Source: Methanococcoides burtonii DSM 6242 (GTDB lineage Archaea; Halobacteriota; Methanosarcinia; Methanosarcinales; Methanosarcinaceae). Taken from it: a DNA stretch of 64,000 nt. The stretch spans positions 837,579 through 901,578 of the forward strand of contig NC_007955.1 of assembly GCF_000013725.1 (NCBI RefSeq), in the 5' to 3' direction. The notes under the pieces are model-generated. The model had not been told where the DNA came from, did no database searches, and was given only the letters and a program-made list of their open reading frames with translations. Position 1 is the stretch's first letter; each line of letters begins with the position of its first letter. Below are positions 4,815 to 55,028 of the stretch, in pieces. The translations under genes and the position numbers were made by a program.

Positions 4815-6682
4815 AGTTCACCCCGGTTTCTAATGATAAGGATCTCAAGGACTACCAGCAGCATAGCAATGATGATAAAGTAGATATCAACGTATTTATT
4901 TGCAGTATATGTGGTCTGCCTGATGATATCGCCGCCTTCATTCGATGTTGCTCTTTCGAGAACGTTCGAGGAGTCTATCGTGGTATCGGATTCCATATCA
5001 TCGTAAAGGTTCACAGCTATTCTTTTGCCAGCTACTTCATAGACACCCACTTCATCATAGAGCAATCTGCTTGTGGTTATAGTACCTGAAGGGGTTGTGA
5101 CCTCCTGCTCCTTTGACAATGCTGAAACGGCACCGGTCTGGACATTGTAATCCCCTATGTCGCCAGTACCTCCAAGCCATGCGATAACCTTTGCCCAGAA
5201 AACAGGATATTCCGGAAGGTTGTGGAAGTTGTTCCATGCTTCCTCTCCAAGCATATCGCTTAATCCGAGGTACATGACAGTACCGTCACCTACATTCCAA
5301 TATGCAAGCATCGGTACATTCGAAGGAGTATCAACAAGGGAAACTGCATCAGACCTGATGGTCGAATTCAGATAAGTGTAGACTGCTATATCCTCGAATT
5401 TCACTTTTTTTGTGAGCCTCGTTTCCTGTTCTACCTTCAATGCCACACCTTTACTGCTCTCGGAGGTGGTGATGATCTTTACAGGAAGCAATTGCATGAG
5501 GTCGATGTTCGCATTCTTCGGGTCAAGTGTGGGCGAGGCGATAACAAGCACGTTCCCACCACTCTTAATGAAAGTGCTAAGCCTTGCAGCTTCTTCAGAG
5601 GTTATTGCCCTTTGTTGTGTATCGACAACAATGACCTTATAATCACTAAGGTCAGCAGGCACGTTATTGGATTGAATGGCCTTTATGTTCGGCAACAGTG
5701 AAAGGGCAGTTGACGAAGGTGATCTTTTAACATCGGTAACAAGAAGCAGTTCGTTCTGCACATTTGCCGGAATTGATATGTAAGCGACATTATCAACTGC
5801 AAGTTTGTCTTCTCTGTCTATAGTGACCTCTGTAATACCGGTCCCAAGGTCTGTCAGCTTGAACTGTTTAGTTGAAAACGGTCCTATATCAAGCTGAAAC
5901 TTCTTTTTGTTCTGGCTTCCCGGTGTATCGATGATCATTTCGACGTTCTGTGTTGTTTCCATGTAGTTCTTGAGAACACAATTGTAGGTGTAACCCTCTT
6001 CATCGGCATCGATCCAGCCCTGAATTATGCCTACATTGTCAGTTGGTGAACCTACTCTTACAAAGGTAACTTTCAATCCGTAGGATTCAGCAAGTCTCAT
6101 GGCTGATACAGGGTCTTCTCCCTGCCAGTTAGTGAAATCTGATACTACCACAATCCTTCCTCCTTCATTAGAAAGGGTTCTCATGGCATTGGTAATTGCA
6201 CTTGAGAGGTCTGCAACAGAGCCTTTCGGAGTAAGGCTGTCAAGGGAGTTCTTAGTAGCGGAAGAACCACCGGATTCGAGCACGTTCACCGGAATGTTTT
6301 CTGCAAGTATTATGCTGTTCTTCTTACTGATGTATGTCTTAGCAATATCAGTGGCACTATCGAACCTGCCATCAGTGTTCATACTAGCAGAAGCATCGAT
6401 AACGAATATCGTATGTTCACCGCTAAGTTCCTCTTCAGTACTATAGAAAGGTCCGGCTATTGCAACGGATATCAGTATCAAAATGAGTAGCTGGGCAAGG
6501 AATATAGGGTCCTTTATAAGTCGTCTCAATGATGCAAATCTCTTCTTTTTCTTTTCTGCAAGCATCAGGAACATGAGTGAAGGTATCTTCAGTTCCAGAG
6601 GCTTTGGGCGTAACAGGTACAATATGATAAGTGGGATTATACTTGCCAGAGCAGCAAGTCCGAGTATGTTCGCAAAAGGCAT
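4811..6682 (-). CDS. BatA-like membrane protein with vWA domain
   Basis: A 623-residue protein. The N-terminus (LGLAALASIIPLIILYLLRP, then KPLELKIPSLMFL) matches the BatA-type N-terminal membrane module found in aerotolerance (Bat) operons. A second transmembrane segment (FLAQLLILILISVAIAG) is followed by a vWA domain with DASASMNTDGRF (about residue 95) as the metal-binding motif. The C-terminus is a single membrane helix, YFIIIAMLLVVLEILII. Its start overlaps the stop of the DUF58 gene by one base (TAATG). Operon position and domain order support a role in a MoxR-vWA chaperone-like complex at the membrane; the client is unknown. Confidence 0.82.
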   Translation of the reverse strand: MPFANILGLAALASIIPLIILYLLRPKPLELKIPSLMFLMLAEKKKKRFASLRRLIKDPIFLAQLLILILISVAIAGPFYSTEEELSGEHTIFVIDASASMNTDGRFDSATDIAKTYISKKNSIILAENIPVNVLESGGSSATKNSLDSLTPKGSVADLSSAITNAMRTLSNEGGRIVVVSDFTNWQGEDPVSAMRLAESYGLKVTFVRVGSPTDNVGIIQGWIDADEEGYTYNCVLKNYMETTQNVEMIIDTPGSQNKKKFQLDIGPFSTKQFKLTDLGTGITEVTIDREDKLAVDNVAYISIPANVQNELLLVTDVKRSPSSTALSLLPNIKAIQSNNVPADLSDYKVIVVDTQQRAITSEEAARLSTFIKSGGNVLVIASPTLDPKNANIDLMQLLPVKIITTSESSKGVALKVEQETRLTKKVKFEDIAVYTYLNSTIRSDAVSLVDTPSNVPMLAYWNVGDGTVMYLGLSDMLGEEAWNNFHNLPEYPVFWAKVIAWLGGTGDIGDYNVQTGAVSALSKEQEVTTPSGTITTSRLLYDEVGVYEVAGKRIAVNLYDDMESDTTIDSSNVLERATSNEGGDIIRQTTYTANKYVDIYFIIIAMLLVVLEILIIRNRGEL

Positions 6683-25405: not shown

Positions 25406-26254
25406 TTGAGGACCTCTACCAGAAAGAACGGAACCGGATATCTTGCTCTTTCCGTCTTTATCGAAATAGCTCTGTTAAGGATATTCGCAGGGAGCTATTC
25501 TGATATTCTTGCTGTGCAGGTTACGGGATATTTTGCCTTATTTATCGGTATTATTGCCTTAGTTCATCACTTCGTACCGAATATAATCTCACATTAGACT
25601 GACCATGTCCATCCATATGGTTACAAAAAATACAGTTCTCTGGCATCGTTATTCATTGCGATCATCTTTATTCTGGCAAGTCTGTATATCCTCTTTGAAG
25701 TTCACTCTACCGTTAATGGAAGTAACTCTCTATTGCCGGATACTTCCATCTATATCTTGCTTTTAATGTCTGTTATTCTATCAGTAGCTATTCTGAAATA
25801 TTGCTCTTTGGATGAATTTGATCAGGCTGGGATATCCCACTCATTTGCACTTAAATTAGATGTTATGTTTTCAGTTTTGATCGCTCTGACCTTGTTTATT
25901 CAAGTCAGTCCAACCGTTCTGATGTTAGAAACAGTGTTGCTAGTTCTCGTACTTATGAAATATTGCATATCGATCGTGATCATGTCCTGCAACGTATTAT
26001 GCGATGCATGCTGGCTTGATGAAAGCAATGTTCAATGTCTTGTAAGGTCCATTGAAGGAATTGAGAATTGCTATAAAGTGCGAACTCACGGTTCACCGGA
26101 CGATCTGTTTGTAGATATTCACGTAAAAGTGGATTCTGATCTCTATGTTATGGAAGCTCATCGGATAGTTGTAAGTATTGAAAGAGAACTTAAAAGGACA
26201 TTTACAGGGATATCGGATGTACTAGTACACATCGAACCTCCTGAGAGACGATGA
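25406..26254 (+). CDS. Cation diffusion facilitator-like membrane protein with in-frame TAG (possible pyrrolysine)
   Basis: Reading through the TAG at 25595-25597 gives one 282-residue frame, the normal CDF length. Before it lie two membrane helices (GYLALSVFIEIALLRIFAG; VTGYFALFIGIIALVHHF); directly after it comes TDHVHPYGYKKYSSLASL, the conserved loop and third helix of CDF proteins, then three more helices and a C-terminal dimer domain (DLFVDIHVKVDSDLY, DVLVHIEPPERR). Both parts share one frame, and no ATG or GTG follows TAG in frame before helix 4. Start is TTG at 25406 behind AGGTGG. The usual HxxxD metal ligands of helices 2 and 5 are not found, so transport may differ. Alternatives: a pseudogene, or two pieces. 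Confidence 0.7.
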
Positions 26255-30039: not shown

Positions 30040-31824
30040 TTACCGGGGTAATCTAATGTGAACTGTGGTCCCCTTTTCTTCCTCACTCTCGATCCAGATA
30101 TTTCCTTTATGCGCTTCAACAATGTTCTTGCAAATATACAACCCCACTCCGGTTCCACCATATCTGCGTTTGATTGAGGCATCGACCTGGTAAAACCTCT
30201 GAAATAAGTTTGGTATAAGCTCCTTTGGTATACCAATCCCTGTATCTTTAACCTCGATATGCAGATCATCTTCCTCTTCATATGCATTCAGGATTATCCT
30301 GCCTTCCGAAGGGGTGAACTTAATTGCATTATCAACAAGATTGGTCAACATATCGGAAAGCCTAGCTTTATCACCATTTATTAGAGGTAAGTTTTCAGGC
30401 ACATTATTTTCAATTAATAATCCTTTATCTTCAATTTGCAAATTGACGTCATTTACTACATTGTCTATAATCTCTGCAATCCGTACCTTCTCTATATGAT
30501 ATTGAATAGCTCTGGATTCTAGTCCGCTGATAAATAATAACGATTCTATCAGGCGTCTGAGCCGCTCTGAATTTCTCAAAACTATATTGACTGCCTTTTT
30601 TTGCTGTTCATTAAGTGTTCCCAGGCTTCCATCAAAAACGAGTTCTACATAACCCTTGATGGAAACAAGCGGTGTTTTAAGTTCGTGGCTTATGTTAGAC
30701 AAGAACTCATTCTTCATCACATCAAGGGATTTGAGATCGTCGTTTACCTTTTCCAGTTCTTTGTTCACCTCTGAAAGTTCATTTGCATATTTTTGAAGTG
30801 CCTCTTCTGATTGCTTTCTTTGGATTATTCTCCACATACCTTCCATAAGTAATGTCAGTTGGCGAACATCGGATTCATCATATTCTTCATCTTTGTTCCC
30901 TACCCCTGCTACTGCAACTACCCTTTCACCATCAAACACCGGGATGTTCATGTGACGCGTTAGTTTCATATGGTCTTTTGGATATCCTTTCTTTAAGGGG
31001 TTTGGAACATTGTAGTCATTTGTAATAATGGGTTTTCGCTGTCTCAGCGCTTCACCCCAAAGTCCGGTGGTCTTCAGGGTATAAACTATAGGCTTATCTC
31101 TTATTTTGCATTCCAGCATTGCAGCTTGGGACCATGAATGCATTGTGAGAACGGACTCATCTTCGTTTACGAATGCGATATAACCAACTTGGCTCTGAGT
31201 AAGCCGGACAGCTTCTTCACGAGCAAAGTCTACGATTTTCTGCATTGACCTGTCGGTCATCTGGTTAAGTTGCAAAAGTGTTTCGAGACGGTACTCATCG
31301 AGCTTCCAGGCATCTTCAGCTTCTTTGCGTCTCGTGATATCTTCAAAGATACCGATGCCACCCAGAAGAGTGCCTTCTTCCGATATATTTGGGTTGTAAT
31401 CAGCTTTTATAAAAATAACTTTACCACTGATTACAGTGCAATATTTTCCTTCATAGTGACCTGGTTTTCTTGAAAGAACCGCTTTGACAGCATCCCTCAT
31501 CTTTTCATCCCGGATGGAGGTTGCCATATTAAAGCCAATGACATCTTTTCTTGAGGCAGAGATAATTTCAAGGAACTTATCATTGCAATGTGTTATCATC
31601 CCATTATGGTCAAAATGGAAAATTCCCAGAGGAGAATTCTCAAAGATCAGACGGTATTTCTTTTCCGAATCCTGAAATAGCTCTTCTGTCTTTTCATTTT
31701 TGCTAATATCTTCGGAAATTCTTATTCCCCCGGTACTGTAATTATCATTACTTATCCTTGAAAAAGAAAAACGATAATTTAAACTAATTATATATCTCTG
31801 AACTATATCACTAGTTAAGCATCG
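30040..31824 (-). pseudogene. 5'-truncated PAS-GAF sensor histidine kinase
   Basis: From ATG at 31599 the frame codes 519 residues: part of a PAS domain, a second PAS-like region (KVIFIKADYNPNISEEGTLL), a GAF domain ending GVGNKDEEYDESDVRQL, a HisKA domain with the phospho-accepting His in LSNISHELKTPL, and HATPase motifs (NLVDNAIKF, DTGIGIPKEL, YGGTGVGLYICKNIVEAH). The same frame is open upstream to 31824 and keeps coding for PAS residues (TGGIRISEDIS, then YRLIFENSPLGIFHFDHNG), but it has no ATG, GTG or TTG before 31599. The first PAS is therefore cut. The gene seems to have lost its 5' end; a shortened soluble kinase made from 31599 is possible. Confidence 0.7.
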
Positions 31825-32403: not shown

Positions 32404-33105
32404 TCAGAATATATTTCCTCTATACACCTTAAGTCCCTCATCTGAGACTGTAAGAATGAAGGGGTCCATGCTGTGTTCTGAAGCACGCATTTTTTTGACC
32501 TGTATATAACGATTTGTTGTATTGTCTTTCATGTGAAGTCCAAGTTCTATAATCCCATCTGCAAGATAATTTTCAAAGTTATTTGCATGATTCAGTCCAA
32601 GTGACTCACTTGTTTCAAGTATCATAAAAGTTGTAAGATTTTCACGTCTTAGTGGTTCGAAAAGATGGTAAAGTCTTTTTCTCATATCACGAGGTTCAAC
32701 ATCGAGGAGTGAATAAAGGGCACCAAGTGAGTCCAATGCTACACATGTGAACTTATCCCCCATCTTTTGTTTGTATTGCAGTATATTTGTCTCTATAAGG
32801 GTTAGGAGATCGCCTGAAAATTCATCGTATTGGAGGCGGTAATCACTAAAATCAGATATTGATAGATTATCTGAAAGTTCCAGTCCCATACTTTTCATGT
32901 TTGCAAGGTGGTTATCCTTGCTTTGTTCAAGAGTAATGTAAGTCCCGAACTCTCCGACATTTTCGAGATATTTTGAAAGGATCGAAAAAGTAATTCCAGA
33001 TTTAAGACTTCCGGGAACCCCCGTTATTAGAATCACACTTCCTTTTGGTATGTCTGTACTGAATATGTCATCAAGTCCATCAATCGTATCAATAAATCTC
33101 ATCAA
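32404..33105 (-). CDS. KaiC-like RecA-superfamily ATPase
   Basis: A 233-residue single-domain ATPase of the archaeal KaiC/FlaH-like group. Walker A is ITGVPGSLKSGIT (about residue 29) with Leu where KaiC usually has Gly. Walker B-like residues are TCVALDSLGALY (about 118), and a catalytic-Glu region YITLEQSKDN lies near 57. Such proteins act in archaeal signalling together with PAS, CheF or DUF835 proteins. It is the last gene of the cassette 35945-32404. Its final bases coincide with sequence also found after hyuA (28221-28265). Confidence 0.78.
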   Translation of the reverse strand: MMRFIDTIDGLDDIFSTDIPKGSVILITGVPGSLKSGITFSILSKYLENVGEFGTYITLEQSKDNHLANMKSMGLELSDNLSISDFSDYRLQYDEFSGDLLTLIETNILQYKQKMGDKFTCVALDSLGALYSLLDVEPRDMRKRLYHLFEPLRRENLTTFMILETSESLGLNHANNFENYLADGIIELGLHMKDNTTNRYIQVKKMRASEHSMDPFILTVSDEGLKVYRGNIF

Positions 33106-33164: not shown

Positions 33165-34292
33165 TCACTGCAAAGCTGTTTGTTCCTGTCTGGAGATTTT
33201 TTCGATTTTAAGGGTATGTTTTACCGTTTCAATACCTCTTTCAGTAAGAGTATTTTCAGCGGTTATGTCTTTATTTTCCATCATTTCTCTCATTGAGATC
33301 TCAAGTTCATGGGGATCAATGTACAGAAGGTTGGCCATATCCTTTTCTTCCTTAATGCCAACATAAAGACAATTCAATATTCTTGTATGTAAATTTTCAT
33401 TCATATTGAGTATTCTGGATAATGCCAGAAGAAGGACATTATCTTCCGATTCTATCAATATGGTCGCGCCTGAAAGATTCCGCAACTGGAGCTCCAGATC
33501 AGTAATATTAATCTTACTAAGACTGATATCCCTTATTTCAGGGGACAGGACAAAATACCAGAGATCTTCAATAAAGACAGTCCCTGATACAGATGAGTAT
33601 TCAAATTTTTTGGTAAATCTAACAATATTGTTTTTTGGTGTGAATGTGTTCGAGATCTCACCGAATGAGAACAAAAGTGGCAATGCTGGAGTATCATCTA
33701 ATGTTCCATCCTTTCCTTCCTTGATAGTTTCAAGGTAATAATGACCCTGTTGTGTCAATTGTGCATTAGCATCAACAAGTTTTCGTATCTTTAAGGTTCC
33801 AAAAGCACGTTTGATTACCTCCATATCATTTGAAATAAGTGGGAGGTGTTTACTGATGTCTTTTCTTCCCATTGCAAGAAGACTTAAAAGTTTTGTTTCT
33901 TCTTCCTTTAACCCTTCAAAATCCGTATTTGCTCTGAAACCGATCTTTTCAAGCAAATGATCTCTTATATTTTCTATATCTTCAGGTTTTCCCGCAAATA
34001 TCATTGTATGGTTGATGTAGGAAGAACCAAAGTTTGAATTTTTCTTATAATCAATAGCTAACTCTGCAATATATCCTGTATCTGCTCTGATATCGTTTCT
34101 CACAGAAGCTGATATGTTCCGGTCCACAGTTTCGATCGATCGGTAGGGGACCATGCTCCAACCAGAACTTGAGGGAAACCAAATTTCATTCTCTGTAAAA
34201 GCTACAACATCATGTTTCCATGCTAAGCTATGACTACTCATATTAGTCATAATCTGTGGCAGATCGATAACGTATGATAATTTCACTTCCAT
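33165..34292 (-). CDS. CheF-like archaeal signalling protein
   Basis: A 375-residue protein that resembles the archaeal CheF family (DUF439), which links the chemotaxis system to the archaellum. The N-terminal half looks like a PH-type beta domain (VKLSYVIDLPQ, then ENEIWFPSSSGWSMVPYRSIE) repeated after about residue 200. Between them and at the end are winged-helix-like segments (LLSLLAMGRKDISKHLPLIS; LLYIDPHELEISMREMMEN). No archaellum or che genes lie in the window, so it may instead serve a separate signalling cassette. Family assignment is from overall pattern only. It sits 13 bases from the DUF835 gene. Confidence 0.5.
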   Translation of the reverse strand: MEVKLSYVIDLPQIMTNMSSHSLAWKHDVVAFTENEIWFPSSSGWSMVPYRSIETVDRNISASVRNDIRADTGYIAELAIDYKKNSNFGSSYINHTMIFAGKPEDIENIRDHLLEKIGFRANTDFEGLKEEETKLLSLLAMGRKDISKHLPLISNDMEVIKRAFGTLKIRKLVDANAQLTQQGHYYLETIKEGKDGTLDDTPALPLLFSFGEISNTFTPKNNIVRFTKKFEYSSVSGTVFIEDLWYFVLSPEIRDISLSKINITDLELQLRNLSGATILIESEDNVLLLALSRILNMNENLHTRILNCLYVGIKEEKDMANLLYIDPHELEISMREMMENKDITAENTLTERGIETVKHTLKIEKISRQEQTALQ

Positions 34293-34304: not shown

Positions 34305-35945
34305 TCAATCATTATAGGTATCTTCATCTGTAAGTGATCTCATCCATCTCTTTAACAGATGATGATCCTTTGTATCAAAGATCAAAGGATCGATCTGAAG
34401 AATTAATCTTGAATCTGATACCATTATGGTGTCATTGGTCTGTTCCATGAACTTAATAACTGACTTGAGATCATTTTCAAGTATGAGGTATTCAAGTCCA
34501 TCTATCAGTACAATACCATCATTTACTTTTTTAATAAAATTTTCGATAGTAGGATGAAGTTTGAACAATTCAGTAGGATCAATTGAGGGATATTCAGAAG
34601 TTTTGGTCTTCGTAAGCCAGATTATAGGAGTCTTTGTAATATTATATTTGCTCCTTATCTTTGCAGGATTTTCTCTTGTAATGCAAAGCCCTGGTCTTCC
34701 TTGCTTGACCATGGTGGAAAATATGTCGTAAGATGCATTCAGATCACCACTATCTTGTATGTATGTATAGCTTCCCTCAAGCTCCAGAGTATCCTTTCTC
34801 TCTGTATTTTCTTCTATAGAAGGGGCTATCAAAAGTCCGCGAAGCTCTGAAATATCTTGAAGTGTAACAATAAGCCCTTTATGATTGTTGTTATCCATTA
34901 TGGCAGAGGTTGCAATGTTCGCATCGATACATTCTCCGTCCTTTTTTAGCAGTTCTATAGAAAGGTCGTTCTTATCTGTAAATTCGAGTAATTCGTTGTT
35001 GCTGATTATGGTAGATATCGGATTGCCGATAATTTCGTCATTAGCATAGCCAAGAAGATCCATAGCTTTCTCATTAGCAGTAACTATATTTTGTTCCCTG
35101 TCAAGTACAATAGTTGCAATTGGTGCTATACGGATAAGAAGATTAAGGTAATCATTGGCGTGTTTCAGTTCTTCTTCTGCAATCTTACGGGGAGTTATGT
35201 CCTCTCCTGAACAGATTATTCCGGTTGTTTTTCCATTATTATCTTTTAGCTTTATAACATTCCATGAAAGCACTTTTTTCTGTCCTGACTTTGTAATGAT
35301 GTTCATTTCGAACGCATTGCATTCATCTTTCTATTGGCATTGTAATTTTTTATAGTGTGCTTTTAAGGTCTCTCTTTCTTCCACAGGAACAAAATTATCA
35401 TAATAATTTTTGCCGATCAATTCTTCTTTGGAATATCCGAGTATTTCACCCCCCTTTTTATTGATATTGACAATATTATGTTCATTGTCAATTATAACTA
35501 TCATAATTCCTGCGACATCGAAATATTTATGGGCAGTATCTCTTTCTTTGCGTATCGTATCATGTTGTTGTTTTATCTTCAACAAAGAATGTACTCTTGT
35601 CTTTAGTTCCAGCATATCCACAGGTTTTGAAAGGAACTCATCAGCTCCTGCTGCAATACCTTTTATCCTGTCTTCCTTTTCGGATAATGCTGTAACAAGA
35701 ACTACTGGAATGAATTTAGTTCTCTCATCATTTTTGAGTTTTTCACAGGTTTGGTAACCGTCCATTTTCGGCATTCGGACATCGAGAAGGATTATGTCAG
35801 GGTCAAAATCCTTTACTTTTTCAAGGGCTTCAACACCATCAGAGGCTAATGCAATTTCATAGTCACCTGAAAGATATGCTTCCATTAATTCAAGGTTCCA
35901 TGGTTCATCATCGACAACAAGTATTTTTGGAAACGGTTCACTCAT
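34305..35945 (-). CDS. Receiver-PAS-PAS-DUF835 regulator with in-frame TAG (possible pyrrolysine)
   Basis: Reading TAG at 35331-35333 as an amino acid joins two frames into one of 546 residues. Receiver domain (1-120): KILVVDDEPWN, phospho-Asp in DIILLDVRMPKMDG, VLVTALS and Lys in LSKPVD. First PAS (about 140-255) spans the TAG at residue 205: before it GGEILGYSKEELIGKNYYDN and after it NIITKSGQKKVLSWN, then ICSGEDIT. Second PAS is about 260-370. The DUF835 domain (about 390-540) contains TPIIWLTKTK and IVLIDGLEYLI. The eight codons between TAG and the first ATG are open and fit PAS spacing. As a stop, TAG would cut the PAS fold in two. It starts the cassette with CheF-like and KaiC-like genes. 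Confidence 0.78.
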
Positions 35946-36085
35946 ATGGCAGACTCCTAAAAAGTAAAGGTATTTCTGAAACGTTTTTGGTCCATTTTCC
36001 TTGGCTGGTTTAAGGAAACTTTAGGTTTAATTTGTCATTACTTAAATAAATATGTTACTATAAAATGTATGATATTCAGCTCAGC

Positions 36086-46115: not shown

Positions 46116-47492
46116 TTAGAAGGTAAGACCGAAGTCTTCGAGTTTCTTTATTGCACCCTCGTAGACCTTGACATACTCGTCAGTTGGTGTGATGGTTGCA
46201 ACGTCATAACAATCCTGGAATCTCTTGCCTTCAGGAGCATTTGCGTAGTTGCCTTCGTAGGAGCTGACGATGTTGTTGATAACAGCGTTCACGGAGTCGA
46301 TATCCATGCCTGTTGTTGCGCGTGAGACTTCTCCCATCATCCTTGCTTCCATACCGGTTGTCTTGTCGGTGATGACACCCTTTGCTGCTGCGACACCTGA
46401 GAGGATCTCACGGCCGGATGATGTGTCAGTTACGGACTGTGCTGCTGCTTCGAGGAGGCACATCTCGGTACATGGACCTGCACATGGATAGTACTGGTTA
46501 CCGGACATAAGGTCTGTGAACTCACTGATGGTTGCACATGCCCATCCTGCTATCTGGAGGGTTTCCCTGGTGTTGGTAGATCCCCATCTGATGTGGACAG
46601 GACCATCAAGGTGCCAGCTTGCACTGCTCATTACCATAGAGTTGATGTGGGTTGCAATGTCTACAATGGTGGTTTCTTCGATACCGCCAGCGTATCCGCC
46701 GAAGATAGGCATCTGTTCATCCATGATGATGTCGCTGTTACCCTTGTAGTGTGCGATAACTGCGATTGCATCGAGGTCGATCTTAAGCTCGTTGAGCTGT
46801 GATACTTCGTGGCTGTCACTTGTCATCTGGCCACCGACACAGTCGGAAGCGATGTTACCCTGAGATGACAGGGAAGTCTCTGGTCCCTAAACAGCCATGC
46901 CAGGTCTGCCAGCCATTGCTGCTGCGTTCCTGATGAGCCTTGTCTCGGTCTTTGCGGCGAGGATCTCGTATGGGCTGCCTGGAATAGTTGGCCTGCCACG
47001 AACTGTGGTCATGACACCGTTAACAATTGTATCAACTTCTTTCTCGAGTGCATAGCTCATGTGAACTGGCATGAACATATCTTCGGAAATTGGTGAACCG
47101 GTTGGACCGCCCTGTACTATAGGTTTCTTCTTGTCGCCTACTGTCCTTTTCTTCATCTGTACTGCATCTCTGCCGGTACCGAGCTGGAATTCTCGGTGTG
47201 GGTTGTTGATAGCGTCCCACATCTCGTCCTCAGTGTATTTGACGATCCTCTTTGTATCTGTGCAGTAGATTCCACAGTCTAAGAGCATGTCGAAACCTGC
47301 CTTGAAGAGTCTCTCCATCTGGTCCTTGTCGGTTGGAACGGTCTCGGTGCCAAAGTCAAGGTTGTATTTCTGCTTGAGTTCCATTGCCTTCATTGGAATG
47401 GTCATCAGATCCCAGTCATCCTGGGTGCATTTCTCGCCTTTCTGTGCTCTGTCATAGAAGTCAAAGCAGGTAACTGATTTTGTAAATGTCAT
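46116..47492 (-). CDS. mtmB: Monomethylamine methyltransferase MtmB, copy 1 (pyrrolysine protein)
   Basis: Transfers the methyl group of monomethylamine to MtmC. The 458-residue protein is read through an in-frame TAG at residue 202 (46887-46889) in AGRPGMAV-TAG-GPETSLSSQG, the known pyrrolysine site of MtmB. Flanking parts are intact: MTFTKSVTCFDFYDRAQKGE at the start, GGPTGSPISEDMFMPVH, then ASWHLDGPVHIRWGSTN and the LEDFGLTF end. TAA ends it at 46116. It follows mtmC1 by 15 bases and ends before a strong terminator. It is nearly identical to copy 2. Confidence 0.97.
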
Positions 47493-53634: not shown

Positions 53635-55011
53635 TTAGAAGGTAAGACCGAAGTCTTCGAGTTTCTTTATTGCACCCTCGTAGACCTTGACATACTCGTC
53701 AGTTGGTGTGATGGTTGCAACGTCATAACAATCCTGGAATCTCTTGCCTTCAGGAGCATTTGCGTAGTTGCCTTCGTAGGAGCTGACGATGTTGTTGATA
53801 ACAGCGTTCACGGAGTCGATATCCATGCCTGTTGTTGCGCGTGAGACTTCTCCCATCATCCTTGCTTCCATACCGGTTGTCTTGTCGGTGATGACACCCT
53901 TTGCTGCTGCGACACCTGAGAGAATCTCACGGCCGGATGCTGTGTCATTTACGGACTGTGCTGCTGCTTCGAGGAGGCACATCTCGGTACATGGACCTGC
54001 ACATGGATAGTACTGGTTACCGGTCATAAGGTCTGTGAACTCACTGAGAGTTGCACATGCCCATCCAGCGATTTGGAGGGTTTCTCTGGTGTTGGTGGAT
54101 CCCCATCTGATGTGGACAGGACCATCAAGGTGCCAGCTTGCACTGCTCATTACCATGGAGTTAAGACTGGTTGCAATGTCTACAATGGTTGTTTCCTCAA
54201 TACCACCAGCGTATCCGCCGAAGATAGGCATCTGTTCATCCATGATGATGTCGCTGTTACCCTTGTAGTGTGCGATAACTGCGATTGCATCGAGGTCGAT
54301 CTTAAGCTCGTTGAGCTGTGATACTTCGTGGCTGTCACTTGTTACCTGACCACCGACACAGTCGGAAGCGATGTTTCCCTGAGCGGACAGGGAAGTCTCA
54401 GGTCCCTAAACAGCCATACCTGGTCTGCCAGCCATTGCTGCTGCGTTCCTGATGAGCCTTGTTTCGGACTTTGCTGCGAGGATCTCGTATGGGCTGCCTG
54501 GTATAGGTGGCTTACCACGGATCGTCATCATGACACCGTTAACAATTGTGTCGACTTCCTTCTCGAGTGCATAGCTCATGTGAATTGGCATGAACATATC
54601 TTCGGAAATTGGTGAACCGGTTGGACCGCCCTGTACTATAGGCTTTCTCTTGTCGCCTACTGTCCTTTTCTTCATCTGTACTGAATCTCTGCCGGTACCG
54701 AGCTGGAATGCTGGCATTGGGTTGTTGATAGCATCCCAGATCTCGTCCTCTGTGTATTTGACGATCCTCTTTGTGTCTGTGCAGTAGATACCACACTCAA
54801 GGAGCATTTCGAAACCTGCCTTGAAGAGTCTTTCCATCTGGTCCTTGTCGGTTGGAACGGACTCGGTGCCAAAGTCAAGGTTGTATTTCTGCTTGAGTTC
54901 CATTGACTTCATTGGAATTGTCATCAGATCCCAGTCATCCTGGGTACATTTCTCACCTTTCTGTGCTCGGTCGTAGAAGTCAAAGCATGTAACTGATTTT
55001 GTAAATGTCAT
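53635..55011 (-). CDS. mtmB: Monomethylamine methyltransferase MtmB, copy 2 (pyrrolysine protein)
   Basis: A 458-residue copy of MtmB with the same in-frame TAG at residue 202 (54406-54408), again in RPGMAV-TAG-GPETSL. By eye it differs from copy 1 at only a few positions per hundred bases, and the last 250 bases look identical. I start at ATG 55011 (MTFTKSV), aligned with copy 1, rather than five codons earlier. It follows mtmC2 by 17 bases. Confidence 0.96.
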
Positions 55012-55028
55012 TTTAAGTTCCCCCAATA

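Follow-up and report, generated by a model that had tools for sequence, protein, structure and literature searches.

The window, by which we mean the whole 64,000-nucleotide stretch of Methanococcoides burtonii DSM 6242 analysed here (contig NC_007955.1, positions 837,579 to 901,578), contains a 546-codon frame on the minus strand (34305–35945) that runs from an ATG at 35945 to a TGA at 34305. A single in-frame TAG interrupts it, and there is no other stop. The frame encodes a response regulator whose orthologues are single ORFs. Pfam assigns it Response_reg (residues 8–118), PAS-1 (148–251, across the TAG), PAS-2 (approximately 269–365) and DUF835 (405–534), the domain order of the REC-PAS-PAS-DUF835 class. 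The TAG is codon 205 (35331–35333, minus strand) and stands in the context KKLQCQ-TAG-KDECNAFEMN. Termination there would leave an upstream segment (35334–35945, minus strand) of 204 residues comprising the receiver and the first half of PAS-1. The downstream segment (34308–35306, minus strand) covers the rest of PAS-1, PAS-2 and DUF835, amounting to 333 residues from its first in-frame ATG. This arrangement agrees with a preliminary description of the same DNA, which had reported one TAG within 546 codons without a change of frame, splitting PAS-1 with the receiver before it and PAS-2 and DUF835 after it.

A Shine-Dalgarno-like GGAG (35954–35957, minus strand) lies 5′ of the regulator ATG. 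The first in-frame ATG past the TAG, at 35306 (Met214), follows 8 codons later and has no Shine-Dalgarno sequence in front of it; the regulator, the neighbouring 375-residue gene and kaiC each have a ribosome-binding site. The receiver active-site residues D12, D13, D55, T85 and K107 are invariant among 25 sequences. In an AlphaFold2 model of modest confidence (pTM 0.35; pLDDT approximately 63 locally at residue 205), residue 205 is placed in a loop between the PAS-1 helix 188–203 and the strand 211–217. A fold search of the PDB returned ordinary PAS and receiver matches only, and a scan of viral contigs found no relative.

Two minus-strand genes accompany the regulator. One (33165–34292) encodes a 375-residue protein of unknown family, and its ribosome-binding site, GAGGGGGGG, overlaps the TGA of the regulator. 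The other (32404–33105), a neighbour of the regulator, encodes a KaiC-like single-domain ATPase. Three further loci from Methanococcoides keep the order MFS, regulator, 375-residue gene and KaiC, with every gene intact, and the regulator also has KaiC as a neighbour in the second genus, g10. CheF-like and KaiC-like partners had been named at the outset: the KaiC-like assignment holds by Pfam, and the CheF identity of the 375-residue neighbour was rejected, since that protein has no PF04283 match and the only CheF match in the genome lies elsewhere. A PAS-GAF histidine kinase gene (30040–31599, minus strand) downstream of kaiC was not seen there in related loci.

Orthologues were sought in 112 genomes of the same family. 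Full-length matches occurred in Methanococcoides (59–79% identity) and in g10 (45–52%). The two genera together contributed 29 orthologues, 28 of them unbroken. In all of these the codon-205 column is free of TAG and is occupied instead by V, L, S, E, Q, G, H or D; in orthologue G057, TAG is present only as the terminal codon. The preliminary description had proposed an alignment of homologues across the TAG as a check on sense decoding, and this comparison supplies what it looked for, namely unbroken orthologues with ordinary residues at that position. The column ranks among the most variable 2.4% across 28 orthologues and among the most variable 5.1% with the genus alone. Among the species searched, the TAG is specific to M. 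burtonii, and it does not occupy an invariant active-site position of the MtmB type. The single broken orthologue, that of M. seepicolus (L060/L061, match 5001–6637), loses its frame past codon 395 through a frameshift, and Methanococcoides may therefore be able to do without the gene. A later Leu-to-TAG change is also present in that sequence, which occurs as two identical contig copies.

The 341-codon extension past the TAG is homologous, residue by residue, to the single-ORF orthologues. Pairwise Nei-Gojobori estimates against two relatives, for which dS is high, gave dN/dS values of 0.118 (bootstrap 0.079–0.170) and 0.110 (0.073–0.163) past the TAG, and of 0.061–0.065 for DUF835. The segment before the TAG, at 0.31, is less constrained than the segment after it. 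The low values past the TAG indicate no release from selection for any large part of the lineage and leave the age of the TAG itself undated. The receiver half has a dS of 0.33–0.35, much below the 0.76–0.90 of PAS-2 and DUF835, a difference of the kind that recombination of the N-terminal half would leave.

The genome is a single contig of 2,575,032 bases with high completeness. It encodes a complete pyrrolysine set, comprising pylT (tRNAPyl, anticodon CTA), pylS, pylB, pylC and pylD, together at approximately 2.186–2.191 Mb. Pyrrolysine is synthesized from lysine via pylBCD, not from methylamines. A mechanical ORF list for 864 kb, or one third of the genome, contains 515 ORFs that are 200 residues or longer, and TAG terminates only 7 of them (1.4%), whereas TAG makes up 19% of background stop trinucleotides. 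Five of these seven continue in frame: two mtmB genes, the regulator, a glycosyltransferase-like gene and a histidine kinase. Reading of every TAG codon as pyrrolysine has reportedly been described for some archaea in recent work, a report given no weight as evidence here, and we found no statement in the literature on genome-wide sense TAG in Methanococcoides. The pylB gene itself (L183:5122-6363, minus strand) has TAG as its final codon, beyond which the frame stays open for approximately 42 codons and runs into the beginning of pylC. In some genes, pylB among them, TAG appears to have kept its role as terminator (PMC2933860).

The window holds further genes with an internal TAG. The two mtmB monomethylamine methyltransferase genes expected from the preliminary description are present at 46116–47492 (minus strand; TAG 46889–46887), which provides a positive control within the window, and at 53635–55026 (minus strand; TAG 54408–54406). 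A cation diffusion facilitator gene (25406–26254, plus strand) carries TAG at codon 64 (25595–25597) in M. burtonii only; its nearest relatives, 90–95% identical, are unbroken with Ser or Leu at that position, and the column falls within the most variable 8.1%. Elsewhere in the genome contig under study, denoted G000:C1, a glycosyltransferase-like gene (L172; G000:C1:375971-377173) has a TAG 47 codons before its end, again in M. burtonii only, with unbroken nearest relatives of 90–95% identity and a column within the most variable 5.5%. A coiled-coil gene with TAG (G000:C1:134243-135532) had no relative within the genus that passed the search threshold.

Other TAG sites are shared between species. 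A CcmF C-terminal-like protein (G000:C1:1125591-1126583, L216; other carriers L220–L225) has TAG at the same position, codon 181, in seven of ten Methanococcoides; three relatives have His there, and the residue varies beyond the genus. The M. burtonii protein is 71–72% identical to those of the six other carriers, with approximately 60% divergence at fourfold sites. In a histidine-kinase family, whose M. burtonii member has 550 residues, TAG lies within HATPase_c in the context SNSLKFTPENG[CS]I-TAG (G000:C1 ~2424000-2428500, L267; L257–L266). All 11 of 11 Methanococcoides have it, and of the 226 codons aligned among them just 25 are the same in every species. A frame closed by this TAG would stop short of the G boxes. 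Retention of TAG across CcmF-like and kinase genes that have diverged so far is expected of a sense codon and not of a nonsense codon. TAG reading looks general in Methanococcoides.

The unbroken orthologues, the constraint past the TAG, the synteny, the missing ribosome-binding site at the internal ATG, the pyl genes, the rarity of TAG as a stop and the TAG sites conserved in other genes together make decoding as pyrrolysine the best reading. We propose, with a probability of roughly 0.85, that the gene encodes a functional, conserved regulator in which a species-specific TAG in a tolerant PAS-1 loop is read as a near-neutral pyrrolysine, giving a full-length product. A mutation in M. burtonii alone would have created the TAG in a loop that tolerates almost any residue. 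The ribosome would then insert pyrrolysine at codon 205, because tRNAPyl, PylS and PylBCD are present and TAG appears to be read broadly as sense. The pyrrolysine would play no special role in the regulator, and its DUF835 is an inactivated KaiC-like output domain. It would probably be a mistake to annotate the gene as a pseudogene or as a pair of fragments.

Judged from the gene alone, a nonsense mutation of very recent date would leave the same picture, given that the codon-205 TAG is absent from every relative. The cell would then make a receiver of 204 residues that ends halfway through a PAS domain while the remainder decays, and the frameshifted orthologue in M. seepicolus suggests that such a loss may be tolerated. 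We nevertheless consider it unlikely: selection past the TAG shows no relaxation (dN/dS 0.11–0.12), 341 codons hold no second lesion, the site of the mutation is among the most variable, and other genes of the genome and genus keep TAG as a sense position. Should the TAG end a first protein and reinitiation at ATG 35306 begin another, the gene would yield two cooperating polypeptides. The in-frame ATG 8 codons past the TAG is suitably placed for this, but it lacks a Shine-Dalgarno sequence, the interruption lies within a single PAS domain, and none of the orthologues consists of two separate genes divided at the TAG, a finding that the preliminary description had named as contrary to decoding; a gene split in this way is highly improbable. 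Just as improbable is a sequencing or assembly error, given a single-contig genome of high completeness and several other genes with the same pattern, some of them confirmed by conservation in independently sequenced species.

The preliminary description had further suggested that, if the TAG is decoded, output of the whole signalling cassette depends on the supply of pyrrolysyl-tRNA and hence on methylamine growth. In such a switch the tRNA level would set the ratio of full-length to truncated protein. Partial decoding would in principle permit this regulation, and an amber codon introduced into M. acetivorans gave 20–30% read-through (PMC2933860); the mtmB genes, moreover, share the window. 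A pyrrolysine or methylamine switch is nonetheless unsupported and, in our estimation, very unlikely, because the site is species-specific and hypervariable rather than conserved and because TAG reading looks general in the genus, being spread over unrelated genes. Synthesis of pyrrolysine from lysine also argues against it. So does the pyl cassette of Methanosarcina, described as constitutively expressed (PMC4153887). If decoding is partial, some truncated receiver would arise as well, perhaps simply as a by-product of pyrrolysine insertion, and nothing points to its regulation. On the comparisons made here, the TAG at codon 205 has the look of an accident that the protein tolerates, not of a switch.

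By analogy, the closest precedent is pyrrolysine in tRNAHis guanylyltransferase (Thg1), which would have been acquired by neutral evolution. Thg1 of Methanosarcina acetivorans carries a pyrrolysine that is non-essential for activity (Heinemann 2009, as reported in PMC2933860), and "neutral evolution" stands in the title of a work cited in that paper. Like the regulator, Thg1 is no methyltransferase, and its gene has an in-frame TAG, translatable as pyrrolysine, in just a single species, at a residue that is, or in the regulator would be, non-essential. It belongs to a different protein family, and its decoding was shown experimentally, whereas that of the regulator is a matter we infer. MtmB, MtbB and MttB similarly have an in-frame TAG within a long conserved ORF, and two mtmB genes occur in the same window; however, their TAG is conserved and their pyrrolysine catalytic, whereas the regulator site is variable and species-specific. 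For Candidatus Methanomethylophilus alvus, 16 pyrrolysine proteins besides the methyltransferases have been predicted (PMC4153887). That organism shares with M. burtonii a very low usage of TAG as stop and scattered read-through genes, half of them with TAG-less relatives. It belongs, however, to another archaeal order, and no response regulator was seen among those of its entries that were read. REC-PAS-PAS-DUF835 is a known architecture in Methanomicrobia, and DUF835 is listed as an inactivated KaiC-like domain (PMC5847659); the domain order of those regulators is identical, and the TAG sets the M. burtonii regulator apart.

Pyrrolysine likely reaches signalling proteins. For a conserved pyrrolysine-containing signalling protein, the kinase family with TAG in HATPase_c, which lies outside the window, is a better candidate than the regulator. 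We suggest, tentatively and as a rather doubtful possibility, that TAG is a standing sense codon in Methanococcoides with two-component signalling as a regular user, that pyrrolysine at the HATPase_c site may be selected and that kinase activity could depend on it. The conserved CcmF-like and histidine-kinase sites make general sense decoding in a methanogen genus directly testable. TAG sites are not always variable, as seen in a 649-residue histidine kinase (G000:C1:1028134-1030080, L246; relatives L247–L249) whose codon 234 is TAG in M. burtonii and Ser in all relatives; three relatives share a different TAG, at codon 563.
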